Source of the DNA: Candidatus Poseidoniaceae archaeon
GTDB lineage: Archaea > Thermoplasmatota > Poseidoniia > Poseidoniales > Poseidoniaceae
Direction: 5' to 3'
Assembly: GCA_030747695.1 (NCBI GenBank)
Contig: JASLKG010000002.1
Span: 101,502 to 165,501 of the forward strand
Length of the DNA: 64,000 nt
The notes below the pieces were generated by a model. The model worked only from the letters and a program-made list of their open reading frames with translations, ran no database searches and was not told where the DNA came from. Position numbers and translations under genes: made by a program. Positions 2,818 through 15,619 of the stretch are shown here, one piece after another. How positions within the stretch are numbered: position 1 is the first letter of the stretch; each line of letters begins with the position of its first letter.

Positions 2818-3303
2818 CTAGCAGTATGGACATACAACATTGAATCTAGCCAGACGTTCTAATCTACGCTCACCGTTTTCATCTGTTTCTGCCATTGCAC
2901 GAATTGCTTCTTCAATCAGTGCATGCTGGTCAGATTGAATTCCCAACAAATTCCTCAATGTATCCACTAGTGCCCATTCTTCTTCAGTGATAATCTCATC
3001 ATCCAAAGCTGCAACCAATGCTGTTTGATAGATAGTCGCATCTCCAATGTGATGCCCTGAGAACTGTGAACCATCTTCAAATGGAGAAGGATCGATTCCT
3101 TTTGCTACATCCATAGCCATGCCTACATCAAATGGCGACACACCTAGTGAAGTAGCTAGAACTTTCATTATTGACGCTTCGTCATCTGTGACAATTCCAT
3201 CATCTAATGCTGTCTTCATTAACTCGAGATAAAGGTGTAATCCGCGACTTGGTATTAGCGCCATAATTGCCGTTGATGGGCTATACGGTTTGAGGATTGC
3301 CAT
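2818..3303 (-). CDS. TerB-like (tellurite-resistance-fold) acidic helical protein with C-terminal CPYC
   Basis: Two repeats of the type ALDDGIVTDDEASIMKVLATSLGVS / ALDDEIITEEEWALVDTLRNLLGI. Confidence 0.6.
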   Translation of the reverse strand: MAILKPYSPSTAIMALIPSRGLHLYLELMKTALDDGIVTDDEASIMKVLATSLGVSPFDVGMAMDVAKGIDPSPFEDGSQFSGHHIGDATIYQTALVAALDDEIITEEEWALVDTLRNLLGIQSDQHALIEEAIRAMAETDENGERRLERLARFNVVCPYC

Positions 3304-3352
3304 TGAATGAAAATATTTTTTAACACATATGTAATCAACTGTATTTCAATTT

Positions 3353-3370
3353 GTATTACAATTGTGATAC
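3353..3370. promoter_or_regulatory. Imperfect palindrome GTATTACAATTGTGATAC upstream of RHH gene; candidate operator
   Basis: 16 of 18 positions are symmetrical; 47 nt upstream of RHH ATG, in divergent intergenic region. Confidence 0.45.
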
Positions 3371-3416
3371 ATTTATGTACTTGAGGTTGGGTGGATACTC
3401 TACAGGAGACCTACTG

Positions 3417-3791
3417 ATGAACACTCCAAGCACGCTCGTTTCGCTAAGAATAACCGACGAAGAGTTGGCACTACTTGATGCACGCGTAGGATTAGATGGG
3501 ACAAGGAATCGCAGCGACGTCATTCGTTCAGCGATTAGAAATTTATTATCTGGGCAACCGCTACTTCCTGAAATGGACAGTGTTACAATCCCTATTGGCA
3601 GGTCTATGAAAAATAGACTTGGACAGTTGTATGAGTTACAAGGCATTAGCCCTGAGCAGGCAACACAACAGGGATTGCAAGATTATGTTCGTCGCTTAAT
3701 AGCAGAAGAAGCTGTACTAAATGATATACTCGAAAAAGATCTAGAGAATTCAAGATCTAAGACAATAGGACGTAAGGAGTTCACTGAGTGA
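3417..3791 (+). CDS. Ribbon-helix-helix (CopG/NikR-like) DNA-binding protein
   Basis: MNTPSTLVSLRITDEELALLDARVGLDGTRNRSDVIRSAIRNLLSG; ATG at 3417. Confidence 0.8.
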   Translation: MNTPSTLVSLRITDEELALLDARVGLDGTRNRSDVIRSAIRNLLSGQPLLPEMDSVTIPIGRSMKNRLGQLYELQGISPEQATQQGLQDYVRRLIAEEAVLNDILEKDLENSRSKTIGRKEFTE

Positions 3792-3811
3792 ATACTGGGT
3801 GAGAGCCACAT

Positions 3812-4059
3812 AAGGAGGGGATGGGAAAATGCGAAGGAATACAATCCACAACAACGGAAATGATTCCTCCTTCCAAACCGATATTGCAATGCCAGGCAGT
3901 ATCAGTTTCGTTGCACTACGTCTTCGTGCAAAATTTGCACAAACTGGCAAAAACCCAACACACGTCCCCCTGGATTCCGACCAGGGGGACTCCGATTCCA
4001 CTCCTGTTTGCTGATAGGAGTTGTACCACACGCATCCGGGCCCCCAAATTCCCGGGTGC
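3812..4059. ncRNA. Candidate structured non-coding RNA region (multiple consecutive inverted repeats), strand undetermined
   Basis: AAGGAGG/CCTCCTT; GATATTGC-8nt-GCAGTATC; CAGTTT..TGCAC-9nt-GTGCA..AAACTG; GTCCCCCTGG-7nt-CCAGGGGGAC; ACTCCT-10nt-AGGAGT; GCATCCGGG-10nt-CCCGGGTGC, all in the intergenic gap. Confidence 0.5.
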
Positions 4060-4127
4060 AATTTAGATGACTAGTGCGACCGCGCTTAATCCTCAACCTT
4101 AAGGCCCTTCGACAAAGGCAAGCGTGT

Positions 4128-6185
4128 ATGCACGCCAATGAAGTTACACATTGGCTGGCCCATCCAATTCCAAGAGAAGGACAACTTGACATGGTTACTT
4201 CGTGCATAGACACTATGTTGGAGGGAAAAACACATTTGGCTAGTGCACCAACTGGTGTTGGAAAAACAGCTGCTGCATTAGCAGCAGCACTAGATATTGC
4301 TCAAAAATCAAATGAACGTAAAACGATAATGTTCGTCACACCAAGACAAAGTCAACATAAAATTGTAGTAGATACTGTTCGACAAATAAACGATCGGAAT
4401 CCTGAGAATAAACTTACTCTTGTCGATATGATTGGCCAATCGGGAATGTGTGTTGAGCCCTTTGCAGGAAATTCAGGTCCAGCCTTCTCATTAATGTGCT
4501 CACAGCATCGGAAAAATAAGCAATGTAAACCCTGGTTGACCAATGCTCCTGACTTTATCAAGCGAATACTGTCAGATCCCTTGCACGTGGGTGAGCTTGT
4601 GGAAATGTCCAAAATACATCGTGAACATGGTGAAAAATTACAAACCTGCCCATGGAAAGCAGCAAGAACTGCAGCAAAAAGTGCTGATATTGTTGTATGC
4701 GATTATAATCATCTCTTCATTGATGAAGTACGTACAGCTTCATTGAAAGCAATGGAATTAGATTTGCAGGATTTAATTGTCATTGTTGATGAGGGACACA
4801 ATTTACCAGATAGAGTGCGTATGGGTATGAAGAGAACTCTCACTCCAACAATGGTTAGAAATGCTGCCACTGAAGTTGAAGAGCACCTAGGCCATATAGA
4901 AAAATCATCTAGAATAAATAGCGATGCAGCAGAAGCTTTACAACTAAAAAGGTGGAATTTTGAAGTTTGCAAAGAGTTGCGAAAGGTTTTGAATCGTGAA
5001 TTTAAAAATTTACTTGGAGAATTAGTTGATTCAAATGAACTAAAGGTTGATGCCAAAGATATCATCTCATGGGTTGATGAAGCATTTGATGCTGTTGCTG
5101 CAATAGTCAATCAATCCACACTAACAGGCGAAGGACCACCATTCACGCCGCCTCACAAAGATGAAAGATGGTATCTGATGAAAACACTGTTGGCCAGTAA
5201 TGAAGTTGATGTAGATGAAAATGGGGAAAATGAGCCGTCTGCTCATCTACTTGCTGATTTATTTGATGTAATATTACGCTTTGGAAATACTACTGCTTTG
5301 TGTTTAGTCTTTGAAGGAGAAGGGAGAGATGGAAGAATTATTTCTCATCTACTTGATGCAGGCCTAGTTGCTGGACCGATTTTTGAAAAAACATACTGTG
5401 CAATGATGATGAGTGGAACTCTTGATCCGCCCCATATGTTTGCTGATTTACTTGGAATTGAAAATGAGAAACGAGGAGAAAGCGTCCACCCCTCGCCATT
5501 TGCTAAAGAAAGAAGACCGATTGTGGTTGCAACTGATGTAACAACTCTGTGGAAAGAAAGAGGTTTCGAAAATACACGTAAGATACGAGAACATATCATC
5601 AAATTATCTCAGTCAACACCTGGTAATGTTGCTGCATTTGTACCATCATACAAAATTCTTGAAGAGATTTTTACCGATCTACATATTCCTGGATTAAAAA
5701 AGATGACTGAATCAAGAAAATGGAGCAAGCAAGATATTGACTCACTACTAGTTGAACTTGAAGATTCTAAAAAAATAGGATCACGCATACTATTGGCAGG
5801 TGTATTTAACGGGAAATTATCAGAAGGTATTGATTACAAAGGAGGGATGTTGGATGCTGTGATTTGCATAGGGATTCCAAACGCTCCACCCTCGGTATAC
5901 CATAATGCCTTAGGTGATTACATTAGCCAAAAATTTGGCTCAGAAAAAAAATGGAGATACACAACCATACAACCCTCTGTTAATTCAATATTACAGGCAA
6001 TGGGGAGGCCTATACGTGCCATGGGAGACAGAGCCCTTATTTTGTTACTAGATCGTAGGAATTCAGAGAGAACTTACAAAATATGCTACCCCCCTGACAC
6101 AATGATGAATCCAGTTTCTAACGCAGACTCAACTGCAAGATTTGCAAAACGTTTCTTTTCTAAAGTGAAATGGGAAGAGTCGTAG
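4128..6185 (+). CDS. ATP-dependent DNA helicase, XPD/Rad3/DinG-type superfamily 2
   Basis: Walker A ASAPTGVGKTAAALAAALD, DEGH box (IVDEGHNLPDRV), C-terminal ILQAMGRPIRAMGDRALILLLDRR. Confidence 0.9.
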   Translation: MHANEVTHWLAHPIPREGQLDMVTSCIDTMLEGKTHLASAPTGVGKTAAALAAALDIAQKSNERKTIMFVTPRQSQHKIVVDTVRQINDRNPENKLTLVDMIGQSGMCVEPFAGNSGPAFSLMCSQHRKNKQCKPWLTNAPDFIKRILSDPLHVGELVEMSKIHREHGEKLQTCPWKAARTAAKSADIVVCDYNHLFIDEVRTASLKAMELDLQDLIVIVDEGHNLPDRVRMGMKRTLTPTMVRNAATEVEEHLGHIEKSSRINSDAAEALQLKRWNFEVCKELRKVLNREFKNLLGELVDSNELKVDAKDIISWVDEAFDAVAAIVNQSTLTGEGPPFTPPHKDERWYLMKTLLASNEVDVDENGENEPSAHLLADLFDVILRFGNTTALCLVFEGEGRDGRIISHLLDAGLVAGPIFEKTYCAMMMSGTLDPPHMFADLLGIENEKRGESVHPSPFAKERRPIVVATDVTTLWKERGFENTRKIREHIIKLSQSTPGNVAAFVPSYKILEEIFTDLHIPGLKKMTESRKWSKQDIDSLLVELEDSKKIGSRILLAGVFNGKLSEGIDYKGGMLDAVICIGIPNAPPSVYHNALGDYISQKFGSEKKWRYTTIQPSVNSILQAMGRPIRAMGDRALILLLDRRNSERTYKICYPPDTMMNPVSNADSTARFAKRFFSKVKWEES

Positions 6186-6641: not shown

Positions 6642-9600
6642 TCAACGATTAGGTATTTCTGGCATCTGTGTGATCTCATCTGCAACACGTGTCAGTGCTC
6701 TTTGCGCATTGACCTTATGTGATTCATTCATTTCATGACGACTATATCTCGCTTCTTCGAATACTGAATCTAACGCGGTTAATGATTCTTCAGAGATTTG
6801 TGGCAATGCTTGACGTATAGCCATTTCGAACTCTCTTACGGTCTCGAAATCACGGCGTAAGAATCCTCTTTGCATTAGTACATGGACAAGACTCTCATAG
6901 CAATTGAAAATTGCTTCCCTCATTGCATCACCAGCAGCCAATAACTCAGCCGTATATGAGAATATATCTGCAAGTTCCTTTGCCGCTTCTGCAGCTCTTC
7001 GTCTTAGAATAACAAATGCTGCTAAAGCACCTGCAACAATAACCACGAGTGCATACATCCACCAAGGCACTCCAGACCCTTCATCATTGTATGAATAACT
7101 TAGTTCCGTACCGACACTATATTCTGCATTGAAATTAGTAACAGATGTATCTGATAGAATTCCACCACTAGATGTTGTAATAATTATGGTTAATTCACCC
7201 CATGTAGATGTGTCCCCATATGGCGGATCTGAATTGAACTCAAAGACGGCAACACCATCTTCATTTGTAACGATTCTTTTGTTTGCAAGTATAGTCTCAT
7301 TTTCGTGTTCAATGAATACTTCAAATGCAATATTTGCAACACCTAGGCCAGTATCTTTAGCAGATACAATGATTTCACCCATAACAACTTCTTGTTTATC
7401 TTCAACAATTGGTTCAACTTCAACATCGATTGAAGCATCAATAGTAATTGGTATCTCATCTGTCCATATGTCACTTGCTCTTAGGAACAGTGATGTATTT
7501 TCAGGAGTGTGAACATTTAGTGATATTGCACCGGGTTCCAACCACGAAGGTGCAATTGCAGTCATGGTAAATTCGCCACTATTCCACAATATGCTGCTCG
7601 CAACTATACAACGGTAATCGCTTCCTGTTTGTGAACAATATGGGCCTTCTCCAAGTGAAAGTATTGCATTATCTATACTGATTTCTTGCCCTCCAACTTC
7701 AGAAACCCGACCAGTTATGACAATTGGATAATTGATTCCATCACTACGCACTACTTCGGTCGAAATTTGATTTATAGTGATAATAACATCTGCCCAAACA
7801 CGTACAGTTTTTGTGTCTTCAACAGGAAGATGTCCTGAACTACCATCAAACTTGAATGTCAAGTTATGCAAACCTCGAGCATACGTAGATTCTGCTCTTA
7901 TTGAAGCACTCCAAGCTCCTGTTATGTCAGTTTGAGCATATCCAACCTGTTGCCCATCCAAGAATATGTAAATGGTTTCACTGGACAAACCATCATTGTT
8001 AGCTGTATCAAGATCATATAGCGTACCACTTATCTCCCAGAAATCATCTCTTGTAACATCAAAGTCTACTATATTTACATCTATTCCAGTTCTATGCGCG
8101 AGGAAGAAAGTAGTATTACCTTGGCCTGCCCTATACCATCCTTGTGTAGGAACACTTGCAACCACTGTGTGTGTACCGTCAGTGAAAATGTTAGGGACGG
8201 TCCAATTTATTGTGAAATTACCATTTTCATCTGTGGTACCATTACCAATCTGTATTCCTTCTACAGTAATGAAAACTGTCATTCCAGACAAAGGTGATAA
8301 TTGATTGTCTCCCACAAATCCATCTATTACAGTGTTATCTGCAACAGCAAGTTGTTCAGGAATATGTACTTCTACATAGATTCTAGAATAGATATTCCAA
8401 GTTCCACTATCGTTACTTGGTAAGTAATATTGAGTTCCAGGGAATGATGCTTCCATGACTAATGGTCCAAGAGTTGCGTCTGCAGGCATAGTATGCACTG
8501 CAGTAAATCCTCCATCCGCACTTGTAGTGACGTTTGTTATCAAAATTCCACCAAGATAAATCTGTATTGTTTCACCCTCAAGTGGATTGTCAACTAAGTC
8601 AAGTAATCTGCCTTGAATTGTTAGAACATCTTCACGATTCACTTCTCCTCCACTTGTTAATAGCAAAATCTTAGTTGGCACAGCAACTGAGAAATTTGAA
8701 ACATCGCTACTAGGATGATAGAAATCAGGATTTGAACTGTCTCCAATACCTATTGGATCAACCCAATCTCTTCCGCCTGTAAATTCAACTTGTATGTCAT
8801 GAGGTCCTGCTGAAATACTGGAAGGTGAGGTCCATGCAAATCCGAATTGTCCTGTGGTTGCATTTGATTCTACGCTGGCAATAGGAACACCGTCGACATG
8901 AAGATAAATAACAGCCCCTGAATTCTCACCATTCTCTTGAAGTGGCAAACCTAGATCATCAAGTAGTGTTCCATTAACATATAGTGTATCTCCTGCAACG
9001 ATAGATGTAGAGTGTTCTAATATCGTCATAATAGTTTCTGCAAGCACTACAAATTTCATTTCAGCATCATCGCCGACCAAACCAGTTGTTCCAGGAGTGC
9101 CAGAGAAATTTGCACTAAGATCATGGAATCCTGGAATCAAATCTGATGGAGATGTTAATGAGATGTTAGCAAATCCATTAGAGTCAGTGCTGCCTGTTCC
9201 TGTAACTATGGTTCCATTTAACACCACACTAACTTGTACACCACTCACCGGAGAGCCAGTATTATCGATTAATAACAAACGAATATCAATATCATCTCCC
9301 CTGTCAACACGATCGTTTAGCGAAGGTTGTCCTGCGCCATCAAATACAGGATCTAGGAATGTCAAAGTAGTAAATCCTTTACTGTCAAAGCTTTGATTGG
9401 CTTGAGACCCTGAATAATAATTGACCGAAGGAATATAGCTTGCCTCAGCCACATGGGTACCTGCTGGGAAGCTTGAATCTAGAGTAATTATAGCAGTCCA
9501 TGTTCCATCCGGTTGCACAGAACCATTAGACAATTGGAATCCTGTAGCAAGACCATCAATTGTGAACAATATGTTTGCCTGTAAAGGATTACCATTTCTT

Positions 9601-12600
9601 ATCTCCAATGAACTTCCATTATCACTTTCAATAGTACCGTTTACATTGAAAGATTCTCCAGCAACTGGATTGGCACTGATTGAATTGACCACAAGTATAG
9701 TCGTGGAACGAACAGTAATAGTGGATAAGTTTCGTTGGCATGACAGAAGATCAATACTTCCATTGAACAGGTATGATACTGTAATTAATCCTAGAGGTTG
9801 ATCAAATGGTATTGTGTGTGAAAAATTAGCTCTACCATTTTCATCTGTAGTATTAGAATTGAGCCATGTTTCATCAAATAATACATCTATAGTATAATTG
9901 CCCAATGCTTGCCACATATTTGAAGACTCAACCATTTGGAGACTCAAATTGACACCTTCTCCTCGATTTACAATTATTGGATTTAGAGGTTGCATGCCTT
10001 CAAATGTAGTAACACCCATAACTTGTATTGAATGATTACTGATATCAGAAATGTAGAATGGTGATGAGTCTTCAACGACAGTTATTACAAAAATTCTCGG
10101 ACCTCTTACGGTTCCATTGTTTAGTATATCTGTTGGAACTGAAAGATTGAAACTTCCATTAGTAGAAGTAAATACGCCATTGATTAAAATCTCATCTGGA
10201 TTATCTTCCCAAAACATTTCCAAAGCAACAGCTGATACTAATGGTCGACTTTGATTGTCTCCATCTTCAATTTGGCCAATTACTTGGAAATTTACTCCTG
10301 CTGTGATTACTGAAGGAATACTATCAACTCTTATGTTTGAAGGTGCTTGTATTGTAATGTTTATCTCAGTATAATTTCCTAAATGTCTTGTAGAACCTGC
10401 GGTTTTAGGGTCTGTAACATCATCTTGGATTTCCATTCTCATAACATAAAGTCCTGGGTCAACTCCACTTACAAGCCATTGGAATGTAGTATTACCATCA
10501 GCACCTGAAATCGAAGTTCCTATCGAGAGGTTGGCGCCTCCATAATCAAAAATATAGTCAACGGAAGATCCTGAAACATTAGACTCATCAGCAATATCTG
10601 AAACAAATACTGGAAGATCTACTGTAGAATTGATCTCTGCAACCAAATCAGAAGTTGTTTCCAACTCAATCCAAGAAGGTCTTAATTTGACCTCTGACTC
10701 AATACCCCAAGTTACCGAGGGTATATTTGGTAAGGCAGGAGGAACTGCTGTATCCACCCATTCCCAATAGGTCCCACCTTCAGGTGCCATTGCATTAAAA
10801 TCTGCTAGTACTTCGATCGTATATACACTAGAAGGAAGAGTTGTTGGAGCTGTTATAGTTATGTTGAATGTGCCTGTTGTATTGTTCAACATTGTAGTTC
10901 CCACATCAAAGAATCCTTGTTCGGTGACTAGTGTAGCTATGATTACCGAATCATTATTCAATACTGCAGTATTATGAACAGCATCTGTTATTGACCCAAC
11001 TATCCATGTTGTATTACCCAAATGCGTCCAATCATCAACAATAGTCAAAGCAACGTCAATATTTCCTTGGATTCTTAGCAAGGATGTACCTGATGATACT
11101 TGATACCATCTGTTCCCACCAAATGCCATATCAAATTGATAATCACCTGCAAGCAAATTAGAATTTGTTGAAAATGTTGGAGATAATGTAGATGTTGAAG
11201 GATCAATTGTCTGATTTACCTGAGATCCGTCGAAATCAAAACTAAATGTGCCATTCAATATTAAATCAAACATACTTCCAAGGTGATCAGTCACTTGTAC
11301 TACAACTGCTGCAGGATTACCACGCAATTGTGGTGTTGCTTGTAATTCAAAGAATAACAAACCTTCCAGCCACCACTCGGTTCCAGAAGTGTTTAGTGAA
11401 TCTGTAGCATTTAATGCATCAGGGTAAAAGGTAAGTGATAGTTCAATCTCACCAGCCTTAACTCTCGTTATATTGCTAATCAATTGCTGTGAAATTTGGA
11501 ATGAACCTGTAACCGAGACATTGAATAATTCAACAAAGGTACCTCCTCCGTTTAATTCCCTCATTCCAAATGATAAGTTACCAGATAATTGTGTTGGACT
11601 TAATCCAAAGGACATTGCAGACCCATTTATGTAAACCATCTGGCCAACTTGTAAAATCGAATTATTGAGTCCCGGTCCTTCTATTGTAGCGGTCAGATTT
11701 GGAGCATCCCGGACATCCATTGTAATGTTATGTGTTGAAGGTCTCAAATGATATAGAGGACCCCCCACACTCTGAGAAGTATCTTGCCATCCATCGAAGC
11801 CAATGGTTGCTGAAATGTTACCTTTAGATTCTAATTCATCTAATGTGACATTAATTTCCCAATAGCCCCCAGAACCTACTACACCTGTAAGATTAGTAGA
11901 CCCAGTTACAGAAGAGGTAAAGTCTAACCAGACCGTCAAATTACCAAGTTTTTCAGAACCTTCTGTTTCATTGTTCTCAAATAGTAGCTTACCCGATATT
12001 ACAGTTGTAGCCCCTGCTCCAAGCACAGGAGCATCTATTGCAGATGGTGATTCATGCGTGATGTTTGAATCATCTGTTATATTTACAAACACACCAACGT
12101 CAATTGCGTCATGTGAGACATAACCGCTTTCCATATGTTCAATCATTATTGCAGCATAACCAGGCAATGAGGGAGTACCAACGGTTCCGTTCATCGTAAA
12201 TGTTCCATTTGCATCTGTGGTTGCAGTACCAAATAGATACTCTCCGCCACCGGCAGAGCCAGGGACATTAACTACATCTGCGACACTAACCATGTGTCCA
12301 AACAAACTAATATCTGGTATTACAGTACTATTTTCCACGTATCTCAAAACACCACTAACTATAACTTCTGTAGATCCATTACGATCATATGTAGTTGGAG
12401 TCCAAGTAAGATTTACAATTTCTACTTCTTCTGGAGGTGGACAAGCATCAAATGGAATCCATCCTAAATCATCACCGCCACTTCCTTGACTCATCTCTAA
12501 TCTAACCTCTCCCCATGTAGAATAGTGTTCACCGAACACATCGTAACCATTACCATTCCAATTTCCTGATGCATAACCATTAACATATCTGGCAGGTAGA

Positions 12601-15533
12601 CCTGCAGTTCTAGCCATTGTCACAAACACTGTAGTAAATTCAGCACACGTACCTTCATGAAGTATATCCAAAAATTGGTACACCAAATCATCTGATGGAT
12701 CAGAATTGCTTCCATTATAATTACGTTTGAAATCTATTGTCGCATTTCCTTCGCGCAAGAATGTTGCTATTGCTTCGGCCTTAGAATATGCATCTGTAGC
12801 TCCTGCAGAATTTATTACTTCATTTGTAACATTACTTACCAATGATGTTGGTTCACTAACGTTATTGTACAAATCTGGAAGTATAATACTGTAGCTAGAA
12901 TTAGTTCCCGCTATTGTGTTCGCAGAAAGTGTTGACCAGTCGAACCAATACTCATGTTGTTCGACCCAAAAATTATCCAATGATCCTGTGATAAGTTCCC
13001 AAGTATGTGTATCATTGGTTCTAGAGATTTGTGAATTTGCGTCCTGCCACAATGTGATATTGTATTGATAAGCAGGCAGAGGTATTTTTGATCCAGGTGT
13101 CATAATTGGCAAATTATAACTTATCATCCATGAAACAGTATCATTTGCATAATTTGATGAAGCAAGGTGTGTGAGATTAGTATATGGAATTGTCACCTCT
13201 TCCTCAGTATGTACGCCTGTAGCCAAACCATATGCTGCACCTGTATAATAATCGAAGGTGTTTAATCTCCAATAATGGATCTTATTCTCATCAACAACTC
13301 CACTAGTATTGTTGGCCCAAAATATAATCTCATTAGGGGTTAGGTCGTCTGATGGATCCCAAGGATTGAATGGAGCACCTGCACACTGAACAAACCAAAA
13401 TAATTCAGGGCATTCCTCTCCATCCATAAGACCCCCGCCATCAGTGTCAGGATTACGCCAATCAGTTCCTGTCATATTTTCTATGATATCTGGAATTCCA
13501 TCGCCATCAAAATCGTCAGGTAATACGTCATCTGAAGCATTACTTTCAGGATTAGTTGAATCGAAATATTCCTGCTTATCACTTACTCCACCTCCATCGG
13601 TATCTGTATCATTTTCCGAAGTGGACCAAATGTCCTGTGAGCCATTTGTAATTCCAATCCATGCATTGTCACAACCCGTACTTACTTCGAAATAATCATT
13701 CAAAGCATCTCCATCAGAATCAAGTAAATTATCACATGGCTCTAGCGGATCTGTCGAAGACATAACCTCATCGTAATCAGTTACACCATCGCCATCAGAA
13801 TCAACAAGTGTAGGATTTGAAAAGAATCCGTATACACCTAGGGTTTCTTCCCAATCTGCAAGGCCATCTCCATCAGAATCACTGTAATCATCATCACAAT
13901 AGTTTGCGAAAGGCCCTCCTGAAGCATCATGACACCAAGAACCATTACGATTCATTGCTATTGAGGCAGCACCGGGACCATTTGGAACACCTTGTAAAAC
14001 ATCATTCAAAACTGTGGCATAAGTAAATGAGGTCAAGGTTCCAGAATTATTGTAATACCCAACACCCCCTGCAGATGAAAAACCACTTCCGTCGAGTACT
14101 GTTAACTGATTTGTACCGCTATTGTATGACACTATAGATGTCGAATAATCTATCATCGAGTCACACGGATCGGTACCATGAGTAACATTTGATTCGTCTC
14201 CATCATTGACTCCACCGAAGTCACTATCTGCCACATTCCATAATGAACATGATAGATTCTCTTGCCAATTTTCAAGACCATCATTATCGAAATCACCCGA
14301 ATCTTCTCGACGAGTTGGATCTGTTTCGTTTGCGTCTATCAAACCGTTGCCATTCTTGTCTTCCTGACCGTCATCAAATTCATCACCATCAGTATTGTTT
14401 GAACGTGGATCTGAAGCTTGTGGAGGATTACCATACTGTCCTGTTACTTCCACCCCATCATCAATTCCATCAGAATCTGTATCTGGATTTGTAGGGTCTG
14501 TAAGTAATGTAAGGGCTTCATAAGAGTCGTTTAGGCCATCATTGTCTGTATCTGCATCATTGGGGTTAGTAGAAGTTATACTATCAGTTTCAGCAGTAAG
14601 TGTAAGACATCCACCAGGACCCGCCCCAGTAACTGGGTCACAGGGTGATACAGTTTCGGTAAATGAACCATCAGGTCCAGGTTCGTAACAAGGTTGCCCT
14701 CCGCAAGTTGTAGTCCATGAAGGATTTACATATTCATAGAGGTTGATTAGTCCATCGCCATCAGGATCGCCATCTTTGCCATCAGCACCAGAAGGTGAAG
14801 TAGCATCAAGACTGTTTGAAGCTTCCCAGCCATCAGGCATACCATCGCCGTCTGTATCCCAACCCATCGGGTCTTCGTCGATTAGCCCATCACCGTCATC
14901 ATCATCGCTGAGACAATCTGCATCTCCATCGCCGTCATTATCGCCTGAATCTACCATGCCATCCTTGTCATTATCGAGTCCATCAGTACAGATATTCCCC
15001 ATGGGGTCTTCATCACATAGAATTGTATTTCCGGTTCCATCCGAACCAGAATCACCACAACCTGGCTGATTATACTGCATTGCATTTTCTTCATCCCAGT
15101 TATTTACAGGCACTGTTCCATTCCACCAAACGCCATTGTCCAAAACACTAGGTGTTGATGACAAATCCCAATTTTGAGGAGATTTGTAAGTATACTCTTG
15201 AAGATTAGAAAACCCATCTCCATCAGGGTCGCCTATTGCTCCATCATCGTTCGATGATGAAAGCGGGTCAAGCCCATATTGCCATTCCCAACCATCAGGA
15301 AGTTGATCATTATCAGAATCCCAATCATTTGGTTGCGTATTCATAAGATATTCCAAACCATATGTCAGACCATCTCCATCTTGATCTGTAGCTGCTAATG
15401 CATTGAAGGAAACAAATTCTATTGAAGCTAAAGTAGATAGCAACATAAGCACAGAAAGTGCCAACGATGAAATCTTCTTTTTGTCTATTTCGCGTAGCAG
15501 AATTGGACGCGCCGCAGATGGGTTAGATTGCAT
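6642..15533 (-). CDS. Giant (~2960 aa) secreted/membrane-anchored surface protein: signal peptide, thrombospondin type 3 repeats, transglutaminase-like domain, multiple Ig-like domains, TM helix, DUF4129-like cytoplasmic domain
   Basis: Single uninterrupted ORF (15551 GTG or 15533 ATG start); DxDxDGxxD repeats; EGTCAEFTTVFVTMARTAGLPARYVNGYASG, EHYSTWGEV, WIPFDACPP; WWMYALVVIVAGALAAFVILRRRAAE TM segment. Confidence 0.9.
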   Translation of the reverse strand: MQSNPSAARPILLREIDKKKISSLALSVLMLLSTLASIEFVSFNALAATDQDGDGLTYGLEYLMNTQPNDWDSDNDQLPDGWEWQYGLDPLSSSNDDGAIGDPDGDGFSNLQEYTYKSPQNWDLSSTPSVLDNGVWWNGTVPVNNWDEENAMQYNQPGCGDSGSDGTGNTILCDEDPMGNICTDGLDNDKDGMVDSGDNDGDGDADCLSDDDDGDGLIDEDPMGWDTDGDGMPDGWEASNSLDATSPSGADGKDGDPDGDGLINLYEYVNPSWTTTCGGQPCYEPGPDGSFTETVSPCDPVTGAGPGGCLTLTAETDSITSTNPNDADTDNDGLNDSYEALTLLTDPTNPDTDSDGIDDGVEVTGQYGNPPQASDPRSNNTDGDEFDDGQEDKNGNGLIDANETDPTRREDSGDFDNDGLENWQENLSCSLWNVADSDFGGVNDGDESNVTHGTDPCDSMIDYSTSIVSYNSGTNQLTVLDGSGFSSAGGVGYYNNSGTLTSFTYATVLNDVLQGVPNGPGAASIAMNRNGSWCHDASGGPFANYCDDDYSDSDGDGLADWEETLGVYGFFSNPTLVDSDGDGVTDYDEVMSSTDPLEPCDNLLDSDGDALNDYFEVSTGCDNAWIGITNGSQDIWSTSENDTDTDGGGVSDKQEYFDSTNPESNASDDVLPDDFDGDGIPDIIENMTGTDWRNPDTDGGGLMDGEECPELFWFVQCAGAPFNPWDPSDDLTPNEIIFWANNTSGVVDENKIHYWRLNTFDYYTGAAYGLATGVHTEEEVTIPYTNLTHLASSNYANDTVSWMISYNLPIMTPGSKIPLPAYQYNITLWQDANSQISRTNDTHTWELITGSLDNFWVEQHEYWFDWSTLSANTIAGTNSSYSIILPDLYNNVSEPTSLVSNVTNEVINSAGATDAYSKAEAIATFLREGNATIDFKRNYNGSNSDPSDDLVYQFLDILHEGTCAEFTTVFVTMARTAGLPARYVNGYASGNWNGNGYDVFGEHYSTWGEVRLEMSQGSGGDDLGWIPFDACPPPEEVEIVNLTWTPTTYDRNGSTEVIVSGVLRYVENSTVIPDISLFGHMVSVADVVNVPGSAGGGEYLFGTATTDANGTFTMNGTVGTPSLPGYAAIMIEHMESGYVSHDAIDVGVFVNITDDSNITHESPSAIDAPVLGAGATTVISGKLLFENNETEGSEKLGNLTVWLDFTSSVTGSTNLTGVVGSGGYWEINVTLDELESKGNISATIGFDGWQDTSQSVGGPLYHLRPSTHNITMDVRDAPNLTATIEGPGLNNSILQVGQMVYINGSAMSFGLSPTQLSGNLSFGMRELNGGGTFVELFNVSVTGSFQISQQLISNITRVKAGEIELSLTFYPDALNATDSLNTSGTEWWLEGLLFFELQATPQLRGNPAAVVVQVTDHLGSMFDLILNGTFSFDFDGSQVNQTIDPSTSTLSPTFSTNSNLLAGDYQFDMAFGGNRWYQVSSGTSLLRIQGNIDVALTIVDDWTHLGNTTWIVGSITDAVHNTAVLNNDSVIIATLVTEQGFFDVGTTMLNNTTGTFNITITAPTTLPSSVYTIEVLADFNAMAPEGGTYWEWVDTAVPPALPNIPSVTWGIESEVKLRPSWIELETTSDLVAEINSTVDLPVFVSDIADESNVSGSSVDYIFDYGGANLSIGTSISGADGNTTFQWLVSGVDPGLYVMRMEIQDDVTDPKTAGSTRHLGNYTEINITIQAPSNIRVDSIPSVITAGVNFQVIGQIEDGDNQSRPLVSAVALEMFWEDNPDEILINGVFTSTNGSFNLSVPTDILNNGTVRGPRIFVITVVEDSSPFYISDISNHSIQVMGVTTFEGMQPLNPIIVNRGEGVNLSLQMVESSNMWQALGNYTIDVLFDETWLNSNTTDENGRANFSHTIPFDQPLGLITVSYLFNGSIDLLSCQRNLSTITVRSTTILVVNSISANPVAGESFNVNGTIESDNGSSLEIRNGNPLQANILFTIDGLATGFQLSNGSVQPDGTWTAIITLDSSFPAGTHVAEASYIPSVNYYSGSQANQSFDSKGFTTLTFLDPVFDGAGQPSLNDRVDRGDDIDIRLLLIDNTGSPVSGVQVSVVLNGTIVTGTGSTDSNGFANISLTSPSDLIPGFHDLSANFSGTPGTTGLVGDDAEMKFVVLAETIMTILEHSTSIVAGDTLYVNGTLLDDLGLPLQENGENSGAVIYLHVDGVPIASVESNATTGQFGFAWTSPSSISAGPHDIQVEFTGGRDWVDPIGIGDSSNPDFYHPSSDVSNFSVAVPTKILLLTSGGEVNREDVLTIQGRLLDLVDNPLEGETIQIYLGGILITNVTTSADGGFTAVHTMPADATLGPLVMEASFPGTQYYLPSNDSGTWNIYSRIYVEVHIPEQLAVADNTVIDGFVGDNQLSPLSGMTVFITVEGIQIGNGTTDENGNFTINWTVPNIFTDGTHTVVASVPTQGWYRAGQGNTTFFLAHRTGIDVNIVDFDVTRDDFWEISGTLYDLDTANNDGLSSETIYIFLDGQQVGYAQTDITGAWSASIRAESTYARGLHNLTFKFDGSSGHLPVEDTKTVRVWADVIITINQISTEVVRSDGINYPIVITGRVSEVGGQEISIDNAILSLGEGPYCSQTGSDYRCIVASSILWNSGEFTMTAIAPSWLEPGAISLNVHTPENTSLFLRASDIWTDEIPITIDASIDVEVEPIVEDKQEVVMGEIIVSAKDTGLGVANIAFEVFIEHENETILANKRIVTNEDGVAVFEFNSDPPYGDTSTWGELTIIITTSSGGILSDTSVTNFNAEYSVGTELSYSYNDEGSGVPWWMYALVVIVAGALAAFVILRRRAAEAAKELADIFSYTAELLAAGDAMREAIFNCYESLVHVLMQRGFLRRDFETVREFEMAIRQALPQISEESLTALDSVFEEARYSRHEMNESHKVNAQRALTRVADEITQMPEIPNR

Positions 15534-15619
15534 ATTCAGGGCTGACACCAATCAATCGGCTAATTTCAAGCCTATTAAGGGAAATGGAACGATGTTCATA
15601 CATTGCTCGATATTTTGAG

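Follow-up and report, generated by a model that had tools for sequence, protein, structure and literature searches.

What occupies the gap between an RHH-type regulator gene and an XPD-like helicase gene in this Candidatus Poseidoniaceae genome: an RNA, a protein gene, or both? In the window, the stretch of 64,000 nucleotides that was analysed as a whole, the gap was read directly in the sequence and runs from the RHH stop codon (3789-3791) to the helicase ATG (4128-4130), as described in the first-pass annotation, which proposed that it holds an unannotated structured RNA or, as a possible alternative, a long 5' leader of the helicase mRNA. The parts of the locus, hairpins aside, are:

3417-3791 (+), RHH (CopG-type) regulator gene of 124 aa, the upstream neighbour (Pfam RHH_1, E 1.2e-5; same neighbour in relatives)
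3798-3825 (+), 5' conserved block GGTGAGAG..GGAGGGGATGGG with the putative ribosome-binding site of the small ORF (family conservation)
3829-4014 (+), unannotated conserved small ORF of 61 aa with the core motif G(F/L)xxLRxRAxxA (in-frame indels, frame-specific score, profile matches)
4094-4113 (+), CAA(C/T)C(C/T)T... element, at a near-fixed 33-36 nt upstream of the helicase ATG (spacing across loci)
4128-6185 (+), XPD/Rad3-like helicase gene, the downstream neighbour (Pfam Helicase_C_2 and DEAD_2)

The RHH gene, the small ORF and the helicase gene all lie on one strand, and their order is kept in the examined genera of the family wherever the contig permits, most of the compared sequences being incomplete metagenome assemblies. 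Within the genus, 21 further genomes carry the stretch, 72-79% identical along most of its extent, the hairpin model matches one copy per genome, and the distance from the small-ORF stop to the helicase ATG is mostly 104-122 nt across relatives, so the spacing to the helicase is constrained. The closest solved structures to the helicase are archaeal XPD proteins such as Ta0057; the RHH protein shows a weak likeness, below curated cut-offs, to aCcr1 and CdrS, which regulate the archaeal cell cycle. Further out, a divergent neighbour with a weak TerB-like stretch (2818-3303, -) adjoins the RHH gene in several genomes, and a 2969-aa ORF for a very large surface-type protein (6642-15551, -) is convergent with the helicase operon and has a homologue downstream of the helicase in several other genomes that were read.

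Known RNA families do not account for the gap. A search of it against all families of Rfam 15 returned nothing at gathering threshold (the only hits, at chance level, scored 17 and 13 bits where the threshold is 50), and the covariance models of archaeal RNase P RNA (RF00373) and archaeal SRP RNA (RF01857) found no match in it. Both RNAs have their own loci elsewhere in the genome (G000:C2:27742-28037 and G000:C4:151626-151929, respectively) and mark it as archaeal.

The ORFs of the gap had been set aside in the first-pass annotation as short and overlapping; this holds as far as length goes, yet the ORF at 3829-4014 (+) proves to be a conserved gene for the protein MRRNTIHNNGNDSSFQTDIAMPGSISFVALRLRAKFAQTGKNPTHVPLDSDQGDSDSTPVC. 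In plain nucleotide alignments, indels (counted as gap runs) inside this ORF are multiples of 3 in 13/13 cases, against 5/48 outside or downstream of it. Only its frame scores as coding, by conservative substitutions, in each of four genera taken separately (z 3.1-3.4), and in these genera it contains no in-frame stops, whereas the other frames are broken. Across the family, the protein profile has matches free of internal stops in most genomes, the strongest constraint falling on G(F/L)xxLRxRAxxA. Upstream, GAGGGGATGG of the 5' block is present in 59/59 family sequences, and the ORF is preceded by GGAGGGGATGGG, a good putative archaeal ribosome-binding site. The product had no match above cut-off in Pfam, NCBIfam or PADLOC, and its predicted structure has a single helix at residues 27-39 (low confidence, mean pLDDT 57). 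Taken across genera, these comparisons show 3829-4014 to be an overlooked protein gene, under selection as protein. In one relative (L014) the ORF is cut to 39 codons by single-base differences, which may be assembly errors or a real loss of the protein, and the hairpins are retained; another locus (L119, in G054) was left out, being a weak protein match (E 1e-3) away from that genome's helicase.

The RNA of the same stretch is also folded. The helices proposed in the first-pass annotation are indeed present where it had placed them, and the + strand of the gap folds at z -5.0 against dinucleotide shuffles, with 0/100 shuffles as good, versus z -1.4 and no better-than-shuffle folding on the - strand. 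Comparison across the family resolves the fold into five hairpins in or across the small ORF and one downstream:

3836-3840/3863-3867 (+), HPa, in the ORF near its start (pair conservation)
3880-3887/3896-3903 (+), HPb, in the ORF, with the strongest covariation (5 pairs significant, best E 2e-5)
3926-3931/3935-3940 (+), HPc, in the ORF over the LRxRA core codons (pair conservation)
3964-3973/3981-3990 (+), HP1, in the ORF (pair 3971/3983, E 8e-4)
4000-4006/4015-4021 (+), HP2, around the small-ORF stop codon at 4012-4014 (folding)
4032-4040/4051-4059 (+), HP3, downstream of the ORF, with a C-rich loop (6/9 pairs significant, best E 1e-5)

Covariation was assessed with a home-made, R-scape-style test in which substitutions are re-dealt along a FastTree tree, giving rough E-values, on an alignment of 59 family sequences guided by protein and sequence and not by structure. 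The family was chosen since the test lacked power within the genus, where no pair reached E<0.05. Across the family 12/45 proposed pairs covary at E<0.05, compared with 0-1 of 45 in a control with the partner slid by 1-4 columns. An unguided stem search was topped by HPb, HP3 and HP1 (scores of 21.9, 16.6 and 8.2, against a null maximum of 4.8 in 20 simulated alignments), leaving aside one alignment artefact, a high-scoring stem at 3787-3790/3914-3917 whose columns are not homologous across genera. RNAalifold on a sequence-only alignment gave 11/14 pairs doubly changed, and a covariance model built from five genera found the element in the unseeded genera g3 and g6. In stem columns on the + strand G-U outnumbers A-C by 71 to 20, so the constraint acts on + strand RNA and a function at the level of DNA, as a cruciform, is rejected. 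When synonymous codons were shuffled, the folding energy of the small ORF gave a mean z of -2.5 (about -5 in the window's genus, weak in several high-GC genera), compared with -1.75 for the RHH end and -0.9 for the helicase start. Pairing of the 5' block with the 3' motif, considered by eye as a closing helix, fails in the window's own genus and was discarded.

The hairpins differ in what they contribute. HPb, in the middle of the ORF, has arms that are wholly different between genera with the pairing retained, and HP3 shows double changes in a 37-sequence consensus fold. The central stem of HP1 is paired in 55-58 of 59 sequences, and within the genus its paired codons are almost without exception GTC, CCC, GGG, GAC and TCC, each rare (in the window's genes they account for 7-23% of the codons in their synonymous families). 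The outer two G-C pairs of HPa are present in 55/55 ungapped sequences, and it is this helix, at 3836-3840/3863-3867, that is conserved at the site where AAGGAGG had been paired with CCTCCTT. Similarly, where CAGTTT/AAACTG had been drawn enclosing TGCAC/GTGCA, the conserved pairing is that of HPc (3926-3931/3935-3940); its outer four pairs are formed in 55-59 of 59 sequences and, being nearly invariant, say little on selection, and its inner two are not kept family-wide. HP2 has at least 5 pairs around the stop in 58/59 sequences, as do 70% of shuffles, with a mean energy of -10.9 against -7.9 shuffled; the alignment slips here across genera, so that no pair covaries significantly, and its support comes from folding, not from alignment-based covariation. 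Comparison over the 59 sequences shows that the + strand RNA of the ORF plus ~45 nt downstream has been selected to form hairpins, strongly for HPb, HP1 and HP3 and more weakly for HPa, HPc and HP2.

The proposal of an unannotated structured RNA is thus upheld for its structure but not as a non-coding RNA, five of the six hairpins lying in or across a conserved small ORF. Covariation had been set beforehand as the confirming result and a coding signal as one of the refuting ones, and both were found. The alternative proposal, that the stretch is a leader of the helicase message, is a possible reading. We consider it very probable that this one stretch is under dual selection, for its protein and for its RNA structure.

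In the order's second family, six genera carry a weaker counterpart of the small ORF in the corresponding gap. These ORFs mostly carry an LRxRA-like core, with a GC-rich hairpin just past the start codon, in the place of HPa, and the 5' block GGTGAGAG is also present; g18 has a short version without HP1-HP3. These ORFs fall short of significance by profile alone (E no better than about 1e-3), and it is position, 5' block and core motif that argue for their homology. What the two families share is probably an RNA-folded small-protein gene that keeps its two neighbours throughout a large group of archaea, marine in all likelihood.

TATA-like boxes are found upstream of the RHH gene in 40/44 loci and in the gap in only 7/72, which favours a single operon. 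Adjoining the box upstream of the RHH gene is a near-perfect 20-bp palindrome (3352-3371, TGTATTACAATTGTGATACA, 18/20), a possible, putatively autoregulatory operator; many relatives retain a TGTAATCA..TGTAATACA arrangement upstream of the RHH gene. The CAA(C/T)C(C/T)T element lies 34 nt from the helicase ATG in g11, g4, g9 and most of g10, 33-35 nt in g1 and 36 nt in two second-family loci, too distant for a ribosome-binding site. It could represent a core promoter that serves the helicase separately, against a single operon, and the hairpins would then fall outside the helicase leader.

Our best explanation, held tentatively, combines dual selection with a structured, translated intercistronic segment that tunes the expression of the operon; the cis-regulatory role is an inference, as is binding of the peptide to RNA. 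The promoter upstream of the RHH gene would drive RHH gene, small ORF and helicase gene as one transcript, in which the hairpin-rich stretch would act in cis as a control segment between cistrons. Ribosomes on the small ORF would unfold HPa to HP2 but not HP3, and its translation would thereby be coupled to the folding of the RNA, the stability of the mRNA and the output of helicase. The Arg-rich helix (LRxRAR) might, more speculatively, bind the hairpins and autoregulate its own message. An order-wide RNA-protein unit, in which a conserved microprotein binds the hairpins of its own coding RNA (perhaps the RNA Tan1, described below) and regulates the RHH-helicase operon or the helicase, seems quite unlikely.

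The stretch could instead accumulate as a stable RNA of its own, arising by processing or from its own start, with a trans-acting function as well as a coding one. A Red Sea study describes Tan1 (Thalassoarchaea ncRNA 1) as a 229-nt structured RNA of MG-II archaea, called non-coding, which ranked fifth in RNA-Seq abundance and has homologues at 75-79% identity (PMC5069720). Set beside this description, our element has a similar length, identity range and complex conserved structure (PMC5069720): from the ATG to the end of HP3 it measures 231 nt, and its within-genus identity of 72-79% is close to that of the Tan1 homologues. The element may be Tan1, and so described before, though length and identity range give no more than a lead. 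However, no TATA-like box is conserved just upstream of the element, and a role in cis accounts better for its conserved linkage to the two neighbouring genes, so that we rate a separate RNA, whether or not it is Tan1, as possible but rather unlikely. An ordinary small-protein gene within an operon, whose hairpins only protect or punctuate the mRNA as decay barriers or 3'-end stabilisers with no regulation, would suit the clear coding signal and the placing of HP2 at and HP3 after the stop codon, the usual position of a decay barrier; it is unlikely, given the strong covariation of HPb in mid-ORF, which a simple 3' barrier would not need, and the rare codons retained in HP1.

Attenuation by a leader peptide, in which translation of the small ORF would switch the pairing of the G-rich ribosome-binding site with C-rich codons and so set helicase expression, draws on the AAGGAGG/CCTCCTT helix of the first-pass annotation. 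This pairing is perfect in the window and joins the ribosome-binding site to codons for Thr, Ser or Ala that retain CCNCC in 54/59 relatives, but most relatives have CCACC, a mismatch to GGAGG, and the perfect complement CCTCC occurs in 7/59; the ribosome-binding site is invariant, which places this pairing beyond the covariation test. The peptide, moreover, is conserved beyond the needs of a leader peptide, and we consider attenuation improbable in spite of a bacterial precedent in Sinorhizobium, where the C-rich codons of a uORF are masked by its own ribosome-binding site upstream of a DUF1127 gene (PMC12218461). A purely non-coding structured RNA with an accidental ORF would agree with the strong covariation and with the variable N-terminal residues that follow the stem arms; it is contradicted by the in-frame indels, the frame-specific scores, the conserved LRxRA core and the ribosome-binding site, and is highly improbable.

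SgrS/SgrT, RNAIII/delta-haemolysin and SR1/SR1P are dual-function (coding) regulatory RNAs, and mostly stand-alone base-pairing RNAs. The locus resembles them in that a single RNA is selected both for structure and for coding a small protein, and the marks of a dual-function RNA, a conserved coding sequence and an RNA structure selected apart from the protein, are found here; it differs in having its hairpins within the ORF and in its fixed place between two genes. In Sinorhizobium meliloti, attenuation by the uORF controls the DUF1127 gene, and our locus shares with it C-rich codons able to pair with their own ribosome-binding site upstream of another gene (PMC12218461). Unlike in that bacterial uORF, the perfect pairing with the ribosome-binding site is not conserved here and the product is a conserved protein.

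The locus represents a clean natural case of one sequence on which selection for protein and for RNA structure acts simultaneously, and it comes from uncultured archaea, probably marine, in which almost no regulatory RNA is understood. Such loci tend to escape both intergenic RNA surveys and gene callers, and, should the element prove to be Tan1, an RNA that ranks among the most abundant in MG-II would have been misread as non-coding.
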